From positions 1 through 38,818 of IMG/VR virus record IMGVR_UViG_3300031576_000171: a stretch of 38,818 nt of DNA. One strand, 5' to 3'. This stretch comes from a virus. The position numbers and the translations under genes were made by a program. The notes beneath the pieces were generated by a model. That model ran no database searches and was not told the origin of the DNA. It saw nothing but the letters and a program-made list of their open reading frames with translations. Below, one piece after another: positions 4,547 through 38,818 of this stretch (position 1 is the first letter of the stretch; each line of letters begins with the position of its first letter).

Positions 4547-4588
4547 TACCATCCCCGCATACCATCCCCGCACCAGGGGGACCAGGGG
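4547..4588 (-). repeat. dispersed G-rich intergenic element, copy 2 (inverted)
   Basis: Reads TACCATCCCCGCATACCATC then CCCGCACCAGGGGGACC, the reverse complement of the element at 23584-23631 and at 619-657. It lies directly next to a CAGTC tract, so two repeat families share this 120-base spacer. Confidence 0.8.
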
Positions 4589-14818: not shown

Positions 14819-15159
14819 GCCGCATCCCCTGCGGCGGCCCGCTCCCGACCGCCGGGGCGACCGCTGGCGCCGTTCGGGGCGGGGGCGTCCGGCCACAGGG
14901 GGGCGGCGAGCAAGCGGAACATCTCTTCCCGTACCATCCGGTATTCCACATGGATCATGGCAGCCGCACAGCGGTCCCGTGCCGCCTGTACGCTGTCACC
15001 CGTGCCGCCGTCAAGCGCAAACGCAATCCGCTCCAGACGATGGGCCGATACTTCCTGCAACACCGCCAGCGCATAGCGCCGGACAATTCCGCCGACTCCT
15101 GTAGCCAGCAGTTCCCTGGCCATGCTCTCGGCGGCCAGCTCATCTTCCATCGTGTCCAT
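14815..15159 (-). CDS. small helical protein of unknown function
   Basis: A 114-residue mostly helical protein (MDTMEDELAAESMARELLAT, VRRYALAVLQEVSAHRLERI) with a Pro/Gly/Arg-rich tail. The start at 15159 has GGGAG seven bases upstream and overlaps the helicase stop by 20 bases; a second ATG three codons later is possible. Its position directly after the helicase would suit a helicase loader or accessory factor, but no P-loop or other motif supports that. Function unknown. Confidence 0.7.
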   Translation of the reverse strand: MDTMEDELAAESMARELLATGVGGIVRRYALAVLQEVSAHRLERIAFALDGGTGDSVQAARDRCAAAMIHVEYRMVREEMFRLLAAPLWPDAPAPNGASGRPGGRERAAAGDAA

Positions 15160-16441
15160 TGCGCGGCTCCCATCCCATCCACTGCGGCATGAATACAAAC
15201 TTCGCCACGCGGTTCCTTGCCCCGTTGCGGTCCTTGCGGACAATCACTTCCGCCGTATGATCGGCGCTCGCCCCGTTGTAGTAGCCCTCGCGGTACAGTG
15301 CCAGAACAATGTCGGCATTCTCCTCAATCTCCCCGCTGTCCCTGAGATCAGCAAGGTCCGGCCTCTTCTCGTGGCTCCTCTCCACACCGCGATTCAATTG
15401 CGCAGCACAGATGACCCGCGTCCCGAGGCGCTTTGCCAGTTGCTTCATGCCCCAGGAAATATGTCCCTGACGTTTATTCTCAGTCTCGCCGGCATCCGCA
15501 AAGAAGCGCAGATGATCGGCAATCACCAGGTCGAGTCCGCCACGCTCGCGTTTCACGCGGGCGCACAGGTCGTACATCTGGTCCGTGGTCTGCGGCGTGC
15601 TCCCGTCAACTGAAAGCGTGTTTCGATACACGATCAGATGAGCCTCCTCTTGCAGCCGTCTGTGCTCGTCGGGCATGAGCTTCTTCTGGCGGTAAGCAAA
15701 CCACGAGACACGCGCCCGCCGACAGGCCGCGCGGATGGCCCACTGCTCCGTCGTCATCTCCTTGGTAAACACGGCCACGACCCCGCCGGCCTCCGATACC
15801 AGATCGGAAATCTGGACCAGCAGGGCGGTCTTGCCCATACCCGGCCTGCCCATGACAACCGCCAGCGTCCCGGCTTCCAGCCCTCCGCCCAGACAATCAT
15901 CCAGCAGGGCAAGTCCGGTCGGGAGGATATAGCCGGTCGCATTGTCAGGGTTTTCCAGAATAGCCAGGACCCGATCAGCAATGCTGGAGATCGGCACAAG
16001 CGTACCGTCGGTCGTGTTGCGCAAGAGATCGGGCGCACCGTTCAAGAGGCCGCGAATATGGGCCTCGTCCCCGGCGTGAGCGGCCTTTATCAGGTCATCG
16101 GCCAGCCCCGAGGCCCGGCGTAGCGCCGTGAGCCGGACCAGTTCCCCGGCAAGATAACCGGCGTGAGTAGCCAGCATCGGCGGCGGGTCCAGGGGGTGGA
16201 AGAAATCGTGATATCTTGCCGCGTCCACCACTGCCCCGCCCCGGATGGTTTCCGCGATCTCGGACCATGCCCGGCGCGCGGGCGCGTTTCCGAAATGCGC
16301 GGGGGTCAACGACTGGACTTCCGGCCACATGATATGCGGCTCCAGCGCCAGCAGGGTGATCAGGTCGGCCTCTATGTCGGGATCGTAGAATTTCCCCTGC
16401 ACCGGCCCGCGCCCGTTTCGCTTGAAGGTTATGTTATTCAT
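15140..16441 (-). CDS. dnaB: replicative DNA helicase, DnaB family
   Basis: A 433-residue RecA-type hexameric helicase. The N-terminal domain (residues 15-135) resembles the DnaB N-domain (DPDIEADLITLLALEPHIMW ... RRAWSEIAETI). Walker A GRPGMGKTA is at 198-206, Walker B LDLVIADHL at 303-311, and the H3/H4 region CAAQLNRGVE and LRDSGEIEENADIVL follow. It unwinds phage DNA at the fork with host polymerase. The start ATG has GGAGGAAGTCT upstream and overlaps the preceding initiator-like gene by eight bases; longer upstream readings lack a ribosome site. Length is close to that of normal DnaB. Confidence 0.93.
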   Translation of the reverse strand: MNNITFKRNGRGPVQGKFYDPDIEADLITLLALEPHIMWPEVQSLTPAHFGNAPARRAWSEIAETIRGGAVVDAARYHDFFHPLDPPPMLATHAGYLAGELVRLTALRRASGLADDLIKAAHAGDEAHIRGLLNGAPDLLRNTTDGTLVPISSIADRVLAILENPDNATGYILPTGLALLDDCLGGGLEAGTLAVVMGRPGMGKTALLVQISDLVSEAGGVVAVFTKEMTTEQWAIRAACRRARVSWFAYRQKKLMPDEHRRLQEEAHLIVYRNTLSVDGSTPQTTDQMYDLCARVKRERGGLDLVIADHLRFFADAGETENKRQGHISWGMKQLAKRLGTRVICAAQLNRGVERSHEKRPDLADLRDSGEIEENADIVLALYREGYYNGASADHTAEVIVRKDRNGARNRVAKFVFMPQWMGWEPRNGHDGR

Positions 16442-17225
16442 AGACTTCCTCCGGGATGAACTCATCCTGAGATACAAATGCCTGCGGCCAGTTCTCGCGT
16501 ATCTGTGCGAGTGTTGGAGACTGACCCTTCTGGCCGCGCCAGTCGCTCTGTCGCCACCACTGAGCAAAGCGATGCACATCTTCTGCCCTTGCCTGATAGT
16601 TCACGGCCATGTGTTCTATAAAAGCGCGGGCGGTCTTTGTGTCCCAGTTCGGGCGAATATGGAAGTCCGACTCGATAGCTCCAGTAAAGCCATTGTGCCT
16701 TGCAATACCTGAGGCCAGTGCCACTGCTATTCTCTTTTTGTATTGCCCGGCAGTCAGGGAGTCGGGCGCGGATGCGCCCTCTTCCTCTGAGAATACTTCC
16801 ACTGAGAATACTTCCTGTGCGGTTTTTTGCGCTTCTAGAACTGTTGTTTTTTGAGTTTCTTGAAACGCAAATTCTGCGTTTCTGGATTTCTTGCCTGGAA
16901 GCCTTACCTTTGGTTTCCCGATCTGAGTTCCGGGCAGGGTATAAACGTTAGTCCTACCCTGCCCGCGTCGTTCACGGAGAACCAGTTTTACATCACATAA
17001 CTCATTGATGTATCCGCGCGCCGTATTCGGACTGCATCCAATAGCAGTAGCCAGCGTCTGCATTCCGGGAAAACAGCCCCCGGAATTCCAGGCATAGGAG
17101 AGGAGAGTTCCATAGGCGCATTTCGCGCCCGGCGAGATGTCTTTACGCCGCAATACGTGAGTGGGTACGACTGTAGCTCCTTCTGACCAGATTCCGTGTC
17201 CTTCCAGTTTCACTTCCCCGCTCAT
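16434..17225 (-). CDS. helix-turn-helix replication initiator-like protein
   Basis: A 263-residue protein. Residues 20-100 form a winged-HTH of the kind found in phage replication proteins (DISPGAKCAYGTLLSYAW, then TLATAIGCSPNTARGYINEL, then LVLRERRGQGRTNVYTL). A charged linker with a small internal duplication (EVFSVEVFSEEE) leads to a C-terminal helical domain. Next to DnaB this suggests origin recognition and helicase recruitment (O/DnaD-like role, inferred). AAAGGAAATGAAGA precedes the ATG. It is the first gene after the TTGACG-17-TATAAT promoter and the structured leader described separately. Confidence 0.82.
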   Translation of the reverse strand: MSGEVKLEGHGIWSEGATVVPTHVLRRKDISPGAKCAYGTLLSYAWNSGGCFPGMQTLATAIGCSPNTARGYINELCDVKLVLRERRGQGRTNVYTLPGTQIGKPKVRLPGKKSRNAEFAFQETQKTTVLEAQKTAQEVFSVEVFSEEEGASAPDSLTAGQYKKRIAVALASGIARHNGFTGAIESDFHIRPNWDTKTARAFIEHMAVNYQARAEDVHRFAQWWRQSDWRGQKGQSPTLAQIRENWPQAFVSQDEFIPEEVYE

Positions 17226-17266
17226 TCTTCATTTCCTTTCCGCCTCCTGTTGATCCCCCGGTTAAA

Positions 17267-17386
17267 GTAAAACAGCCGTTACCGAAACGCGATTGCTTGT
17301 CGGACACCTGCTACGGAGGTCCGGTCGCTCGCGCCTGATAACGGCTGCTTTACCGACAAACAAAAACGACCGCTCCCTCCGTAGCA
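17267..17386 (-). ncRNA. structured leader RNA with three crossing helices (candidate new RNA element)
   Basis: Read on the minus strand from the predicted transcription start. P1 pairs 17376-17386 with 17309-17319 (11 bp) and 17367-17372 with 17322-17327 (6 bp). P2 pairs 17353-17361 with 17295-17303 (9 bp). P3 pairs 17337-17353 with 17267-17283 (17 bp). All strands appear in the order P1, P2, P3, P1', P2', P3', so every helix crosses the others. The three non-Watson-Crick positions are G-U on this strand and would be A-C on the other, which points to a minus-strand RNA. It ends 41 bases before the initiator-like gene. Probable cis-regulatory leader; an origin element is the alternative. Confidence 0.75.
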
Positions 17387-17420
17387 CTGACATTATAAAT
17401 CTATTTTCCCCCGGCGTCAA
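17385..17420 (-). promoter_or_regulatory. strong sigma70-type promoter of the replication operon
   Basis: On the minus strand TTGACG (17420-17415), a 17-base spacer, TATAAT (17397-17392), and a predicted start near 17385. The -35 hexamer lies inside the last codons of the preceding leftward gene. The predicted start falls on the first base pair of the leader helix P1. This is the best promoter in the window. Confidence 0.85.
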
Positions 17421-17622
17421 CCCGCTGCCCCGCTTCCGGCGCGGCGGCATCCACCGGCCCCCGCCCGTTCCGCGCCTGCCACACAAACCGCGCCGCTTTG
17501 CAAAATCCAAAATCGGGGGCGTGGAAAAAAAGGATCAACGCTTCCGCCTTCTGCGCGTCCGTCAGCCCATGCCTGCCGATCATCCGTTTGAGGACGGCAT
17601 ACTGCCGGTAATAATCAGTCAT
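17401..17622 (-). CDS. small protein of unknown function
   Basis: A 73-residue protein, MTDYYRQYAVLKRMIGRHGL then TDAQKAEALILFFHAPDFGF. The first 45 residues are helical and look genuine; the C-terminal 20 are Ala/Gly/Pro-rich. It overlaps the previous stop by eight bases and has no strong ribosome site, so translational coupling is likely. It is the last gene before the replication-operon promoter, whose -35 box is within its 3' end. Confidence 0.65.
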   Translation of the reverse strand: MTDYYRQYAVLKRMIGRHGLTDAQKAEALILFFHAPDFGFCKAARFVWQARNGRGPVDAAAPEAGQRVDAGGK

Positions 17623-17935
17623 GGCTGCCGTTCTTTACTGCGGCGAGGCGCGCCAGCCAGCGCATGATCTCGCCCAGCCCCACGAGCGTCCGGTGGCGGG
17701 TATCCAGCACCGGACCGGGCAGGCCGTCCAGTATGTCGCCGGTCTGGACCTGGTGTACCGGCAGCCCGGCGCGGCGCGCGAGGGCCAGCGCCCGCCGCGA
17801 GTCTTCGCTGTCGGTCAGGTACAATTGCGATACTCCGGCCGGTTTCCGGGTCACATTCCAGTCCTTCGGGTCACTCGCATCCGGCTGCGGGCCCGGGCGC
17901 GGGCGGGTCAGGCTGTAGAGGCGGGATTTGCTCAT
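17615..17935 (-). CDS. small alpha/beta protein, thioredoxin-fold-like without cysteines
   Basis: A 106-residue protein. SQLYLTDSEDSRRALALARR, then AGLPVHQVQTGDILDGLPGP, VLDTRHRTLVGLGEIMRWL gives a strand-helix-strand-strand-helix series ending in a cis-Pro-like GPVLDT, reminiscent of glutaredoxin or GST N-terminal domains. The CxxC is missing, since the expected loop reads TDSEDS. It could be a non-redox binding version or an unrelated alpha/beta fold. It is coupled to neighbours by overlaps of four and eight bases. Function unknown. Confidence 0.65.
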   Translation of the reverse strand: MSKSRLYSLTRPRPGPQPDASDPKDWNVTRKPAGVSQLYLTDSEDSRRALALARRAGLPVHQVQTGDILDGLPGPVLDTRHRTLVGLGEIMRWLARLAAVKNGSHD

Positions 17936-18075
17936 TTCGGCCAGTGCTTCCGGTCGGGCTCACTCAGGAACCGCCTGATCTGCGGCGCGATACGCTGCTC
18001 GTACAGGCGCCGCTTCAGACACCGCCCCAAAGCGGCGAGGGCAAAGGCAGATAGGACAATAGTGAGTTCGATCAT
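17932..18075 (-). CDS. small single-pass membrane protein
   Basis: A 47-residue protein: MIELTIVLSAFALAALGRCL is one hydrophobic helix, followed by a basic cytosolic-type tail (KRRLYEQRIAPQIRRFLSEP). The ATG overlaps the preceding stop (ATGA) and the stop overlaps the next start, so it is translated within a tightly packed operon. Frames extending upstream of this ATG have no ribosome site. A role at the host membrane is likely; no family is recognised. Confidence 0.65.
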   Translation of the reverse strand: MIELTIVLSAFALAALGRCLKRRLYEQRIAPQIRRFLSEPDRKHWPK

Positions 18076-23150: not shown

Positions 23151-23171
23151 TGTACGTAAGTGTACGTAAAC
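23151..23171. promoter_or_regulatory. operator-like tandem repeat TGTACGTAA
   Basis: TGTACGTAAG is directly followed by TGTACGTAAAC, two tandem 10-base sites in the leftward promoter region (weak GTTTAC/-10 CTATACC). A related cluster is at 23219-23244. Arc/CopG-type RHH repressors bind such tandem repeats, and one is encoded 97 bases away. Confidence 0.6.
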
Positions 23172-23218
23172 TATAAACCAGATTTACCAGGCTGTCAAGT
23201 GCCCTGCGTCCCAACATA

Positions 23219-23583: not shown

Positions 23584-23631
23584 GTCCCCCTGGTCCCCAA
23601 AAGTGCGGGGATAGTATGCGGGGATGGTATA
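23584..23631 (+). repeat. dispersed G-rich intergenic element, copy 3
   Basis: TCCCCCTGGTCCCCAAAAGT, then GCGGGGATAGTATGCGGGGA and TGGTATA. It is the same unit as at 619-657 and, inverted, at 4547-4588. It lies just upstream of the TTGACA promoter of the transglycosylase gene, in an otherwise non-coding 266-base spacer. Confidence 0.8.
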
Positions 23632-23649: not shown

Positions 23650-23679
23650 TTGACAACCGCAAGCAATAGCATATAGAAT
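23650..23679 (+). promoter_or_regulatory. strong promoter of the transglycosylase gene
   Basis: TTGACA (23650-23655) with either TAGAAT (23674-23679, 18-base spacer) or TATAGA (23672-23677, 16-base spacer). The predicted start is near 23686, exactly where the hairpin at 23686-23715 begins. A perfect -35 box. Confidence 0.8.
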
Positions 23680-26323: not shown

Positions 26324-26830
26324 ATGGCCCGCGAGACGCCGCGCCACCGGGAAGCCTTCGAGCAGTGGTATGCCGACCCGGATCGCAATGTTACTGCGAT
26401 TGCGCGGCAGTATGGGGTAACAGATACGGCGGTTCATAAATGGCGTCAAAAGTTTGGCTGGGATGCGCGTGCAGCAGAGCGGGACCGGGAAGTGGAACGG
26501 CGCGCACGCAACGAATCTATCAGGCGCCAGGCCGATATGCTCAAGCGTCATGCTCAATCCGGGCGCGCGTTGCAGCAGCAGGGCCTGAAGCGAGTGCTAC
26601 AGGGAATCGAATCTGACCAGGCCGCGATCCGGGCGGTCACAGAAGGGGTACGGGTAGAACGGCAGTCGGAAGGATTGCCGGAGTGGATTTTTGAAATCCT
26701 GAATGCCAGCAACGATGAGCTACAGCGTAAGTACGCCGACGCCATTGCAGAGGCAGATGGTGATACTGCGGGAGATGCAGGCCCGCAGATTGCCGCTTCC
26801 GACGCGGGTAACGGCTCTCAGGCAGCCTGA
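26324..26830 (+). CDS. terS: terminase small subunit
   Basis: A 168-residue protein. The N-terminus is an HTH (FEQWYADPDRNVTAIARQYG, then VTDTAVHKWRQKFGWDARAA), and the central part is a long basic coiled coil (ERDREVERRARNESIRRQAD). This is typical of small terminase subunits that recognise phage DNA and form rings. It starts four bases after the methyltransferase stop and overlaps the large-subunit frame. GGAGGAAGGGTGACAGC gives a ribosome site, if slightly distant. No pac or cos sequence could be identified. Confidence 0.82.
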   Translation: MARETPRHREAFEQWYADPDRNVTAIARQYGVTDTAVHKWRQKFGWDARAAERDREVERRARNESIRRQADMLKRHAQSGRALQQQGLKRVLQGIESDQAAIRAVTEGVRVERQSEGLPEWIFEILNASNDELQRKYADAIAEADGDTAGDAGPQIAASDAGNGSQAA

Positions 26831-28112
26831 TACCTGGCCCGCCAACCACCTGGCCGACCCCGAGACCGGGCAGCCCGTCCCGTTCCACCCCGGCCAGCAG
26901 CGAGCCCTGGACAGTCCGGCGCGCTTTGTATTCGTGCTGGCGGGAACGCAGGGCGGCAAGACCAGTTTTGGACCCTGGTGGCTGGCGCGTGAGATAGACC
27001 ACCTGGGCGGGGGCGACTATCTGGCGGTCACGGCTACCTTTGACCTTTTCAAGCTGAAGATGCTCCCGGTCATGCGTCTGGTATTCGAGACGATCCTGAA
27101 ACGGGGGCGCTACTGGGCCAGCAGTCGGGTGATGGAACTGGCCGATCCGCAAGGCCGCTTTCATGCTCAAACAGCCGATGATCCCATGTGGGGCCGGATC
27201 ATCCTTCGCTCGGCCGAGAGCGGCGGCGGCCTGGAAAGCGCCACGGTCAAAGCGGCCTGGCTGGATGAGTGCGGGCAGGAATCGTTCGTCATCGGCACCT
27301 GGGAGGCGGTGCTCCGCCGTCTCTCACTCTCGCAGGGCCGGGTGCTGGGCACGACCACGCTCTATAACCACGGCTGGTTGAAGGCTCAGGTGTATGACCG
27401 CTGGGCTGCGAGAGAGAGTGACTATGAAGTTGTCCAGTTTGACAGCCACATCAATCCGCGCTTCCCTCAGGCAGAGTATGACCGCGCTGAGCGCGATATG
27501 CCTGGCTGGAAGTTTCACATGTTTTACCGGGGTGAGTACGATAGACCGCCCGGCATGATCTACGACTCATTCAACGAGTCGCGCTGTGTTATTGAGCCAT
27601 TCGCCATCCCTGACAAGTGGCCGCGCTATGGCGGCCTGGACTTCGGCGGGGTGAACACCGCCGCGCTGTGCTTTGCGGAAAACCCGGCCAACAAACGATT
27701 GTATGCTTTTCAGGAATATCTGGAAGGCGGTAAGACCGCGGCCGGCCATTCGAAAGACCTGGCCCCATGGGACTGCGCGTTGTGGGTGGGTGGCTCACAC
27801 TCGGAGGGCCAGTGGCGGCAGGAATTTCGGGCGGCGGGGCTGCCCGTAAACGAGCCGCCGATCAATGACGTGGAAGTAGGAATTGACCGGGTATATGGTT
27901 GCCATGCCCGGAATGAGATATTCGTGTTCAAGACCCTGACCCGTTATCTGGCCGAGAAGCGCACCTATAGCCGCGAGCCTGACACCGCCGGGCAGCCGAC
28001 CGAAAAGATCAGGGACAAAAACAGCTTCCATATTCTGGATGCGGAGCGGTACATCATCAGCCAGCTCCGGGATACTACCCCGAAGCCGCAGGCAGGGGTC
28101 ACATGGATCTGA
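26703..28112 (+). CDS. terL: terminase large subunit
   Basis: A 469-residue packaging ATPase/nuclease. Walker A AGTQGGKTS is at residues 80-88, Walker B AAWLDE at 184-189, the coupling motif GTTTLYN at 216-222, and the RNase H-like nuclease begins with GGLDFGG (D313). It drives DNA into the prohead and cuts it. The first ATG overlaps the small subunit by 128 bases; an in-frame ATG at 26757 (MVILREMQAR) would also fit, and neither has a strong ribosome site. The stop overlaps the portal gene by 10 bases. Confidence 0.93.
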   Translation: MPATMSYSVSTPTPLQRQMVILREMQARRLPLPTRVTALRQPDTWPANHLADPETGQPVPFHPGQQRALDSPARFVFVLAGTQGGKTSFGPWWLAREIDHLGGGDYLAVTATFDLFKLKMLPVMRLVFETILKRGRYWASSRVMELADPQGRFHAQTADDPMWGRIILRSAESGGGLESATVKAAWLDECGQESFVIGTWEAVLRRLSLSQGRVLGTTTLYNHGWLKAQVYDRWAARESDYEVVQFDSHINPRFPQAEYDRAERDMPGWKFHMFYRGEYDRPPGMIYDSFNESRCVIEPFAIPDKWPRYGGLDFGGVNTAALCFAENPANKRLYAFQEYLEGGKTAAGHSKDLAPWDCALWVGGSHSEGQWRQEFRAAGLPVNEPPINDVEVGIDRVYGCHARNEIFVFKTLTRYLAEKRTYSREPDTAGQPTEKIRDKNSFHILDAERYIISQLRDTTPKPQAGVTWI

Positions 28113-30091
28113 TCGAGCGCTTGCAGGGCTGGCTCTTTCAGGGATTGGTCAAGGCTTCCGGGTTGGCGGTCGCTCCGCCATGGGTTACAACCAGCTTTCA
28201 GGAACCGTCCTTCCGCTCACTGGTCACCGAGGGCTACCAGCAGAATGGCGCTGTATTCGGTTGTATCAGCGCATTGGCCTTTGGATTTCCAGAGCCACCT
28301 GTTGTCGTCGCCAACCTGAAAGATGAGGCTGTCCCTGAACATCCTCTGCGGCAATTGCTGAACAACCCCAATCCGCTCATGGGCGAGCCAGAACTCATGT
28401 ACTACACGATCATCTACACGGCCATCGGCGGCAACGCCTACTGGCACAAGGTCCGCAGTGGCTCCCGCCGGGTGGTGCAACTCTGGCCTTATCACGCGGG
28501 GCACATCCTGCCCGTGCCAGGTGGGGCAAACTGGATCTCGCACTACACCTACGACCCTGGCACCGGTCAGAGAATCCTCGTTCCCCCGGAAGACATCGTA
28601 CACTTCAAGTGGCCTGCGGTGGACGCCTACCAGCCGTGGATGGCAATGGCCCCATTGCGAGCCGTGGCACGGGACGTGGACAGCGACAATGAAATCATTC
28701 GCTATCTGTTTGCATTGCTGAAGAATGACGCTGTTCCGAGAACGGTATTGACATTGCCTGCTGGCGCAACCCTGGAACGCGCAGCACGCCGCCGACTGAA
28801 GCGGGACTGGAACCAGAAGTTCAGCGGCACGGGCCGGGGCAGCACGGCGGTCCTTGAGGGCGGGATGGACATCAAACGTGTCGGTCTGGACTTGAAGGAG
28901 CTTGAGTTTCAGGCATTGCACGATGTCCCGGAGCGCAGGATTTGTGCCGCATTCAAAGTTCCTCCGGTGGTTGCTGGACTTGGCGATGACCCTACATTCT
29001 CGAATAGCGAGGCAGCCTACACAAGGTTCACGCACAGCACACTCGCCATGCTGTGGCGGCTTGCCGCCGGAGAAATTCAGAGTGCACTGGGTTCGGACTT
29101 CGGCGGGAATATCCGGGTTCACCACGATCTGTCGAAGGTGCAGGCACTGGTAGAGGATCAGAATAAACTCTGGAACCGGGTGCATCAGGGTGTCTCCGGT
29201 CAATATGTCATGGTCAATGAGGGACGGGCGGCGCTCGGACTGCCTCCAGATGCCAGAGGCGATGTCTTCCTGCGAACACTGGCAGTTATCCCGGAGCCGG
29301 CGCAACCGGTCAAGGGGTTACAGCTCAAGCAGTCCCGTGCTGCCGTGCGGGTGGCTCAGACATTGCAGACGGTGCGGGGCACTACAGCCCGTAAGATGGA
29401 GAAGGAGCTTGACCGGTATTTCGACGCCCTGGCGGAACGGGTGGTCCGGCGCGCAAGCAAGAGTCTGGATGGGAACATACGCCATGCCCCCCTCTCGGCC
29501 TCCGGTGTGCTCGCGCTGGAGCGAAAGGTTCAGGCGGGCGATCTGCTGACCGACGGCGACAACCGGGAACTGTCGGCGCTCATCCGCAAGTTTCAGGCAG
29601 ACATTATTTCCGCGAGCTGGGAGACATGGAACACTGCGCTGGGGGTCGTGGTGGACTTCACCCTGGACGATCCGACCGTCACGTCTATCCTTGCCACGAG
29701 CGGGCAACGGGTGCGGGACATTCAGGGGACGACTCTGGAGCACATTCGCTCTGCGTTGCAGCACGGCGCCGAGCAGGGCTGGTCCATTGATCAGATTGTT
29801 GATGGAGATGAGGACACGCCCGGCCTGCGTCACGTGGTGGAACAGACCTACCGTAACCGGGGACGGGCGATTGCGCGCACAGAACTGGGAACAGCGCAGC
29901 AACAGGCCGCTGTGATGCGCTACGGCGACGCCGGGATCAAGCACGTGCTGGTGCTGGACAACGGCCAGGAGGACCCGGATACGGAGTGTGCTGCCGCCAA
30001 CGGTCAGACATGGACCCTTGCAAAGGCGGAAAGCAGCCCGCTGCAACATCCGAATTGCACGAGAGCTTTCGCCCCGGTGGTGGGTGAGTGA
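28103..30091 (+). CDS. portal protein fused to a MuF-like head morphogenesis domain
   Basis: A 662-residue protein. Residues 1-400 match HK97-type portals: YQQNGAVFGCISALAFGFPE, HPLRQLLNNPNPLMG, GNAYWHKVR, PEDIVHFKW, ERRICAAFKVPPVVAG. Residues about 430-660 are a MuF-type region (VRGTTARKMEKELDRYFDAL, GRAIARTELGTAQQQAAV) ending in DTECAAANGQTW and QHPNCTRAF, the Cys/His/Asn pattern of MuF C-termini. Normally these are two genes. The portal forms the DNA entry vertex; the MuF part would lie inside the head and may be injected. Confidence 0.9.
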   Translation: MDLIERLQGWLFQGLVKASGLAVAPPWVTTSFQEPSFRSLVTEGYQQNGAVFGCISALAFGFPEPPVVVANLKDEAVPEHPLRQLLNNPNPLMGEPELMYYTIIYTAIGGNAYWHKVRSGSRRVVQLWPYHAGHILPVPGGANWISHYTYDPGTGQRILVPPEDIVHFKWPAVDAYQPWMAMAPLRAVARDVDSDNEIIRYLFALLKNDAVPRTVLTLPAGATLERAARRRLKRDWNQKFSGTGRGSTAVLEGGMDIKRVGLDLKELEFQALHDVPERRICAAFKVPPVVAGLGDDPTFSNSEAAYTRFTHSTLAMLWRLAAGEIQSALGSDFGGNIRVHHDLSKVQALVEDQNKLWNRVHQGVSGQYVMVNEGRAALGLPPDARGDVFLRTLAVIPEPAQPVKGLQLKQSRAAVRVAQTLQTVRGTTARKMEKELDRYFDALAERVVRRASKSLDGNIRHAPLSASGVLALERKVQAGDLLTDGDNRELSALIRKFQADIISASWETWNTALGVVVDFTLDDPTVTSILATSGQRVRDIQGTTLEHIRSALQHGAEQGWSIDQIVDGDEDTPGLRHVVEQTYRNRGRAIARTELGTAQQQAAVMRYGDAGIKHVLVLDNGQEDPDTECAAANGQTWTLAKAESSPLQHPNCTRAFAPVVGE

Positions 30092-38367: not shown

Positions 38368-38715
38368 ATGAGCTTTGCGAGCCACCTGATCCACACCTCC
38401 ACGGTGCAGACGGGGACACCGGCTGCCGATCCCTACAACCGGGACGTGCAGGCCTGGTCGGATCGGGAGGTGGAAATTCCCTGTCGGCTGGTGATTTCCA
38501 TCCACGATGTTATCACGAGTGATCTGGCACAACTGCTGACCGTCGCACGGTATCGGTTGCTGCTGCCTGCAGGTGTCACTGTGACAGAGAATGATCGGGT
38601 CAATGTCACACTGGAAGATGGCTCTGCCTCCGGTCCTTACCGGATCAAAGGCATTCTTCCCCGTCGAAACCATGCATTGCATCACACCACGCTGGAACTG
38701 GAGCGAGTGTCCTGA
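38368..38715 (+). CDS. head closure / head-tail joining protein
   Basis: A 115-residue protein of the phage head-tail joining (HK97 gp7 / SPP1 gp16-like) type: SHLIHTSTVQTGTPAADPYN, REVEIPCRLV, ARYRLLLPAGVTVTENDRVN, GPYRIKGILPRRN and HHTTLELERV form the expected small beta-barrel. It lies between the adaptor and the gp10-like protein across the join. The ATG follows a repeat tract with no clear ribosome site. Confidence 0.82.
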   Translation: MSFASHLIHTSTVQTGTPAADPYNRDVQAWSDREVEIPCRLVISIHDVITSDLAQLLTVARYRLLLPAGVTVTENDRVNVTLEDGSASGPYRIKGILPRRNHALHHTTLELERVS

Positions 38716-38818
38716 AAGGACACAGGACTATAGTCATGAGTCATCTCATTCCACAGATCACCCTTTCAGACGAAGAGTTTGAGCGGTTGCAGAACTACGC
38801 CGACCATCTGGGGCTGAC
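38692..38818. repeat. terminal direct repeat, right copy
   Basis: Exact copy of bases 1-127. It contains the end of the head-closure gene (stop at 38713-38715) and the first 83 bases of the small gene that is complete at the left end. Removing one copy gives a 38,691-bp circle. Confidence 0.95.
38736..38818 (+). CDS. partial duplicate of the RHH-like gene (cut by window end)
   Basis: First 83 bases of the gene that is complete at 45-242, present again only because of the 127-base terminal overlap. It is not a second gene. Confidence 0.95.
   Translation, partial: MSHLIPQITLSDEEFERLQNYADHLGL

Follow-up and report, generated by a model that had tools for sequence, protein, structure and literature searches.

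A leader RNA with crossing long helices, predicted to be bistable or knotted, at the start of a phage replication operon

What is carried by the roughly 160 nt that separate a near-consensus promoter from the replication initiator gene in the virus record IMGVR_UViG_3300031576_000171, where long segments can pair in mutually crossing order? We addressed this question within the window, meaning the whole stretch of 38,818 nt that was analysed. It carries an exact 127-bp direct repeat at its two termini (positions 1-127 = 38692-38818; 60% GC) and, given this terminal repeat, is probably a complete or circularly permuted siphovirus genome of 38,691 bp. Structural genes are read from the plus strand; within an extended block of minus-strand genes (23.2k to 9.6k) lie the promoter, the ~160-nt leader and the two genes that follow it. 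The first of these encodes a 263-aa replication initiator with an HTH_36 domain (16434-17225, minus strand; phrog_270, 5e-14), and the second a DnaB-like replicative helicase (15140-16441, minus strand; phrog_19, 8e-59). The probable ATG of the DnaB gene (16441) overlaps the stop codon of the initiator gene, which suggests translational coupling, so that control over initiator translation would plausibly extend to DnaB.

Several other features of the window were recorded. Two divergent sigma-70 promoters, each matching 11/12 consensus positions (23170-23198 on the minus and 23650-23679 on the plus strand), probably mark the main early control region at ~23.2-23.7 kb, and the cumulative GC skew has its minimum close by. 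Arrays of CAGTC(A/T)TCAGTC-like repeats occupy three intergenic sites in the genome (4495-4548, 14505-14580 and 38290-38366). The sequence GTCCCCCTGGTGCGGGGATGGTATGCGGGG forms a 30-bp perfect inverted repeat whose copies, at 618-647 and 4553-4582, are separated by 3.9 kb; a partial third copy lies at 23603-23630. The portal protein has its kin among the Mu-like phages Aussie, StopSmel and Mwe-Yong1, and TerL among a wide group of environmental contigs (window 26703-30091); their combination with a DnaB/HTH_36 replication module looks like an exchange of modules.

The sequence-only reading that drew attention to the locus had claimed a TTGACG-17-TATAAT promoter on the minus strand, and we could confirm a sigma-70 type promoter there (17392-17420, minus strand) that agrees with the consensus at 11 of 12 positions. 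It overlaps the stop codon of an upstream 73-codon ORF (17401-17622). With a 6-nt discriminator, the predicted +1 is G17385, placing a leader RNA of ~160 nt, the 5’ UTR of the initiator-DnaB operon, at 17226-17385 on the minus strand; we infer the transcript and its +1 from this promoter, and the same holds for how control is directed, what triggers it and what function the RNA may have, as discussed below. G17385 is at the same time the first G-C pair of the first helix, H1, in keeping with the earlier observation that pairing begins at or next to the transcript start. No terminator-like site, that is, no stem with a U-tract, was found in the leader, and a role as transcription terminator or attenuator was ruled out on this ground.

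A helix search on the minus strand resolved the pairing into four helices. H1 (19 bp in total, with arms 17364-17385 and 17310-17330) comprises H1a, of 10 bp, or 11 bp should the transcript include 17386 (17385-17376 with 17319-17310), and H1b, of 9 bp including 2 G-U pairs (17372-17364 with 17330-17322). H2 has 11 bp with 1 G-U (17363-17353 with 17303-17293) and H3 18 bp with 3 G-U (17354-17337 with 17283-17266), while H4, of 8 bp with 2 G-U (17336-17329 with 17292-17285), prolongs H3 into a 26-bp helix across a 1-nt bulge at 17284 (arms 17329-17354 and 17266-17292). Altogether, of the 120 nt at the start of the leader, 108 are assigned to helices (56 bp), each with essentially one strong partner. 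The pairing order is 1-2-3-1’-2’-3’, known as ABCABC or ‘pseudotrefoil’, with linkers of 0, 0, 0, 6 and 0 nt.

The three helices proposed from the sequence are therefore all present on the minus strand, in the proposed order, and every non-Watson-Crick pair is indeed a G-U on that strand. Their lengths had been understated, however (H1b has 9 rather than 6 bp, H2 11 rather than 9 and H3 18 rather than 17), H4, with its extension of H3, had been overlooked, and the linkers, given as 5, 0, 9, 5 and 11 nt, are in fact shorter.

Is this arrangement more than chance would produce? The leader has a crossing-triple score of 93.8, a value not reached in 3000 dinucleotide shuffles of its sequence (best shuffle, 71.1). 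In GC-rich phage DNA (~2.2 Mb), isolated crossing triples with a comparable summed score turn up at a rate of about one per Mb, so this score is by itself indecisive. When helices broken by small loops were joined before scoring, the leader came first in 2.93 Mb of phage DNA on both strands (97.9 versus 80.1 for the runner-up). Moreover, the best fold that uses no pair of the minimum free energy (MFE) structure reaches -55.5 kcal/mol, as compared with -38.3±2.8 kcal/mol in shuffles (minimum -49.3; 0/1500).

These properties depend on the strand. By GC-corrected second-fold energy, the minus-strand leader takes ranks 1 and 2 of 5158 genome windows, while the opposite (plus) strand falls outside the top twelve; the ranking made without GC correction, in which the leader is at rank 137, is uninformative. 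The MFE z-score is -3.8 on the minus strand and -1.45 on the plus strand, whose folding is not unusual. Confinement of the unusual folding to the minus strand favours an RNA made from this promoter over a DNA-level palindrome, supporting the earlier description of an RNA-strand feature that starts at the +1 of a strong promoter. The leader structure is thus real, statistically exceptional and strand-specific.

Two explanations that dispense with a functional RNA can be weighed against these results. The overlapping inverted repeats could be operators or a phage origin, recognised by the initiator or by a repressor, with the RNA folds a by-product; the repeats adjoin the initiator gene and overlap the transcription start, as such a DNA element might. 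Yet the irregular positions are all G-U on the minus strand, H1 starts exactly at +1, and the unusual folding is limited to that strand. The arms are not repeated elsewhere apart from one copy of the H3 motif with 3 mismatches, 16801-18000 contains no iterated 9-mers beyond the leader arms and hence no iterons, and three unrelated inverted motifs would require three specificities, making a DNA element improbable. We consider least probable of all that the inverted copies lack a function, having arisen in a non-coding stretch by template switching or chance: a single sequence is known and comparable triples recur at the rate given above, but the combined statistics, the use of nearly all of the 120 nt, the exact +1 position and the near-consensus promoter argue against it.

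Folding predictions for the leader converged on two alternatives. State A is a 5’-terminal hairpin of 30 bp built on H1 (17309-17386, minus strand), worth about -45 to -46 kcal/mol alone; state B is a hairpin of 35 bp (17266-17354, minus strand) that combines H3+H4 with an inner stem and excludes A. As the helices cross with almost no linker, B can form only by undoing H1. The predicted energies of A and B are nearly identical at 170 nt (-63.4 versus -63.3 kcal/mol) and close for the 135-nt core (-55.5 versus -57.7 kcal/mol), the gap lying within about 0.5-6.4 kcal/mol at other transcript lengths; a shift of 1-2 nt at the 5’ end reverses which fold is favoured. With A fixed, 0/2000 randomisations yielded a competitor matching B in strength; with B fixed, 14/2000 yielded one matching A.

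A fold based on H2 is 13-18 kcal/mol worse than either A or B, and H2 was dropped as a stand-alone state. Of the switch suggested earlier, between H1/H3 and H2 states, the H1-versus-H3 alternation is thus predicted by the energies, whereas the H2 state is not. The computation demonstrates the helices, their mutual exclusion, the equal energies of the two folds and their strand specificity.

Knotted forms are not scorable in the nested energy model, which counts against the reading as a switch, and we used linker distances to estimate which helices could coexist. Simultaneous formation of H1, H2 and H3 is forbidden by the 0-nt linkers next to H2, which bears out the earlier expectation that all three are unlikely to coexist. 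H1 and H3 together are allowed by linear distance, with a 9-nt L1 (about 62 Å) over an 18-bp stem (50 Å) and a 26-nt L3 spanning 21 bp; H1 with H3+H4 is disallowed, L1 offering 62 Å where 67 Å are needed and L2 being 0. A true pseudoknot of H1 with most of H3, large and of H-type, with the H2 segments as loop strands, might therefore be the functional form, for instance as a compact protein-binding operator or a shield of the 5’ end.

Such a knot is the main structural rival to a switch. Arms with one strong partner per nucleotide and no shared strands favour it, as this is expected of a knot and not of a switch in which strands are exchanged, and the summed duplex energies of H1 (-34.3 kcal/mol) and H3 (-26.5 kcal/mol) rival either hairpin alone. 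ABCABC knots are typically built from short stems. They are also rare, found in 51 sequences as compared with 1688 for the H-type in one survey (PMC3390330). In the leader, L1 would have to wind more than 1.5 turns around H3, becomes too short, with L2 = 0, once H4 forms, and is 0 nt if H2 is considered, which excludes H2. We regard the partial H1+H3 pseudoknot as unlikely, if worth keeping in view.

The reading we favour, tentatively and at a little under an even chance, is that the first ~120 nt of the initiator-DnaB mRNA act as a bistable leader that takes on its fold while being transcribed and thereby tunes initiator/DnaB translation. The H1 hairpin of state A would be complete once ~80 nt have been transcribed and would be the first to form; the second half of the leader, whose sequence can pair with the hairpin loop, could then build the larger H3+H4 hairpin of state B. 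Folding of successive prefixes of the growing transcript agrees with this order, A being the sole fold up to ~115 nt, after which B competes. The direct refolding path between A and B has a predicted barrier of 38-46 kcal/mol, an upper bound since pseudoknotted intermediates were disallowed, which suggests a fold picked during synthesis or needing later help. With two folds of near-equal energy on either side of such a barrier, the outcome is probably decided in transcription, or later by a helper, rather than by equilibration; candidates for the helper would be a ribosome, a helicase, a nuclease or an RNA-binding protein.

How might the fold reach the initiator gene? Its likely Shine-Dalgarno sequence is AGGA at 17234-17237 (minus strand), 8 nt before the ATG at 17225. 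The GGAGG at 17243-17247 that had been pointed out before the gene, as a partner of CCUCC in the 3’ arm of H1, lies 17 nt from the ATG and is not the best-placed candidate, so the proposed CCUCC-GGAGG link to the initiator is weak. Opening the ribosome-binding site is predicted to cost 2.1-2.4 kcal/mol in A and 4.1-4.3 kcal/mol in B for transcripts of 217-257 nt; the two states are equal at 187-197 nt, the difference appearing once the transcript reaches at least 50 nt into the gene. State B would thus make the initiator site somewhat harder to open, so that activity would be higher in A, and coupled translation would carry the effect over to DnaB; as the lever is weak (~2 kcal/mol), the direction, A on and B off, is a guess.

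A possible leader ORF of 34 codons (17363-17262, minus strand) was also noted, with a TTG start at 17363 and GGAGGGAG upstream. It spans the whole structured leader and ends about 25 nt before the initiator Shine-Dalgarno sequence; its codon third positions are near-neutral, and no homologue was found. The GGAGGGAG motif (17380-17373) is buried in A, at 15 kcal/mol, and exposed in B, at 3.6 kcal/mol, a difference that could matter if the short ORF from TTG 17363 is read.

Several considerations weigh against the bistable switch. A strand common to both folds is typical of switches, but here the arms hardly compete for bases, 108 of 120 nt having a single main partner. In addition, the predicted effect on the ribosome-binding site is small and gone at 187-197 nt, there is no terminator or U-tract, and the searches described below reached no homologous leader. 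A more specific proposal, that this very large pseudotrefoil-like leader is an undescribed phage regulatory RNA that, through a long H1+H3 knot or a choice made by order of synthesis, serves as a one-way timer for initiator and DnaB, is conceivable, and we rate it as rather unlikely.

The same complementarity could also operate between molecules. A processed 5’ hairpin (17385-17310) might act as a small RNA that, through its loop, base-pairs in trans to the 3’ half of further leader copies, near the initiator ribosome-binding site, for copy-number or immunity control as by P1 c4, P4 CI and IsrK. The hairpin forms a compact unit of 76 nt at the end of the transcript, and its loop segments 3-4 are complementary to the downstream leader over 26 bp; but a terminator is absent after H1, and cofolding of the two fragments gains nothing, the -74.0 kcal/mol obtained being the sum of the parts. 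As C4 and other Rfam models are negative and neither a repressor nor a lysogeny gene could be recognised among the genes of the window, self-antisense control appears to be a remote prospect, about as improbable as a DNA element.

Searches for relatives covered RNA families, viral sequences and the neighbouring genes. The suggestion that no known Rfam family has this shape held: Rfam 15, including C4 (RF01695), gave no match over the whole window at gathering thresholds, and none even at E<=5 for 17150-17480. Scans of viral sequences with the initiator and DnaB as single proteins gave no homologous locus, and a scan for the exact H1/H3 pattern gave no match; the H3 motif had 17 chance-like matches in viral contigs, mostly in coding-like sequence and with the other arms absent nearby. 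An alignment search with the initiator recovered only Jenst-type phages, one with DnaB yielded 80 loci, 0 with this initiator, and those with portal and TerL yielded 80 loci each (TerL up to 61% identity) with other replication modules. The more distant HTH_36 genes of phages G062, G063, G082 and others lack a comparable leader. In Brevibacillus phage Jenst (L019, ~1200-1460), a related initiator is preceded by a TTGACA-type promoter and a leader of more than 200 nt that has a long hairpin but no crossing architecture. A homologous leader was thus not reached by viral scans, genome scan or tblastn, in collections that may omit very near records.

Taken together, its predicted folds make the leader most likely a regulatory RNA of the replication operon, either bistable or knotted. 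Should it switch co-transcriptionally between two states, the leader would provide a compact, naturally occurring case in which crossing helices rather than shared strands force the fold, and would place phage replication genes under the control of an RNA fold. At 160 nt, the system is small and open to direct probing and reporter fusions.

Among known RNA architectures, the ABCABC pseudotrefoil, or L-type genus-1 knot, has the identical order of pairing segments (PMC3390330, PMC4708108). The known examples, 51 sequences, are called exotic; the helices of the leader, in contrast, are 11-26 bp long, have near-zero linkers and cannot all be present together. In the leader of the MS2 maturation gene and in hok, the order of synthesis picks the fold, and slow refolding controls translation. 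Metastable leaders are also described for type I toxin mRNAs such as hok and aapA1 (PMC6733600). What we propose here resembles hok, aapA1 and MS2 in that the fold would be set by the order of synthesis; these systems differ in using short metastable hairpins and one ground state, where the leader has two large folds of about equal energy, and the window contains no toxin and is not an RNA-phage genome. In P1/P7 c4 (RF01695), c4-a1b1 and P4 CI, a hairpin RNA is made in the same transcript as a complementary target near a ribosome-binding site. The leader shares with c4 and P4 CI a hairpin and its complement in one transcript near such a site, but its complementary segments stand in crossing, non-antisense order and match no Rfam family.

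The closest parallel in outline is IsrK (isrK-orf45-anrP) of the Salmonella prophage Gifsy-1, whose 180-nt leader has two folds, A at -85.66 and B at -84.21 kcal/mol (PMC4825925). One of these is silent and the other active, as established with native gels and compensatory mutants (PMC4825925). Both are phage leaders, comparable in length, that have two mutually exclusive folds of nearly equal energy, predicted in our case. A further likeness is that the central part of the 5’ RNA base-pairs with a stretch of ~30 nt farther downstream, with a resulting adjustment of translation that for the present leader is proposed. IsrK differs in that it controls an antiterminator through an upstream ORF, whereas the first gene here is a replication initiator, and in that its terminated short form acts in trans, whereas this leader has no terminator. 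The leader is thus like IsrK in outline, but we do not file it as a member. The earlier view of the locus as an undescribed system is not established: phage leaders with two near-isoenergetic folds are a kind already known (PMC4825925), with the difference that the folds of IsrK share strands and the helices of this leader cross without shared strands.
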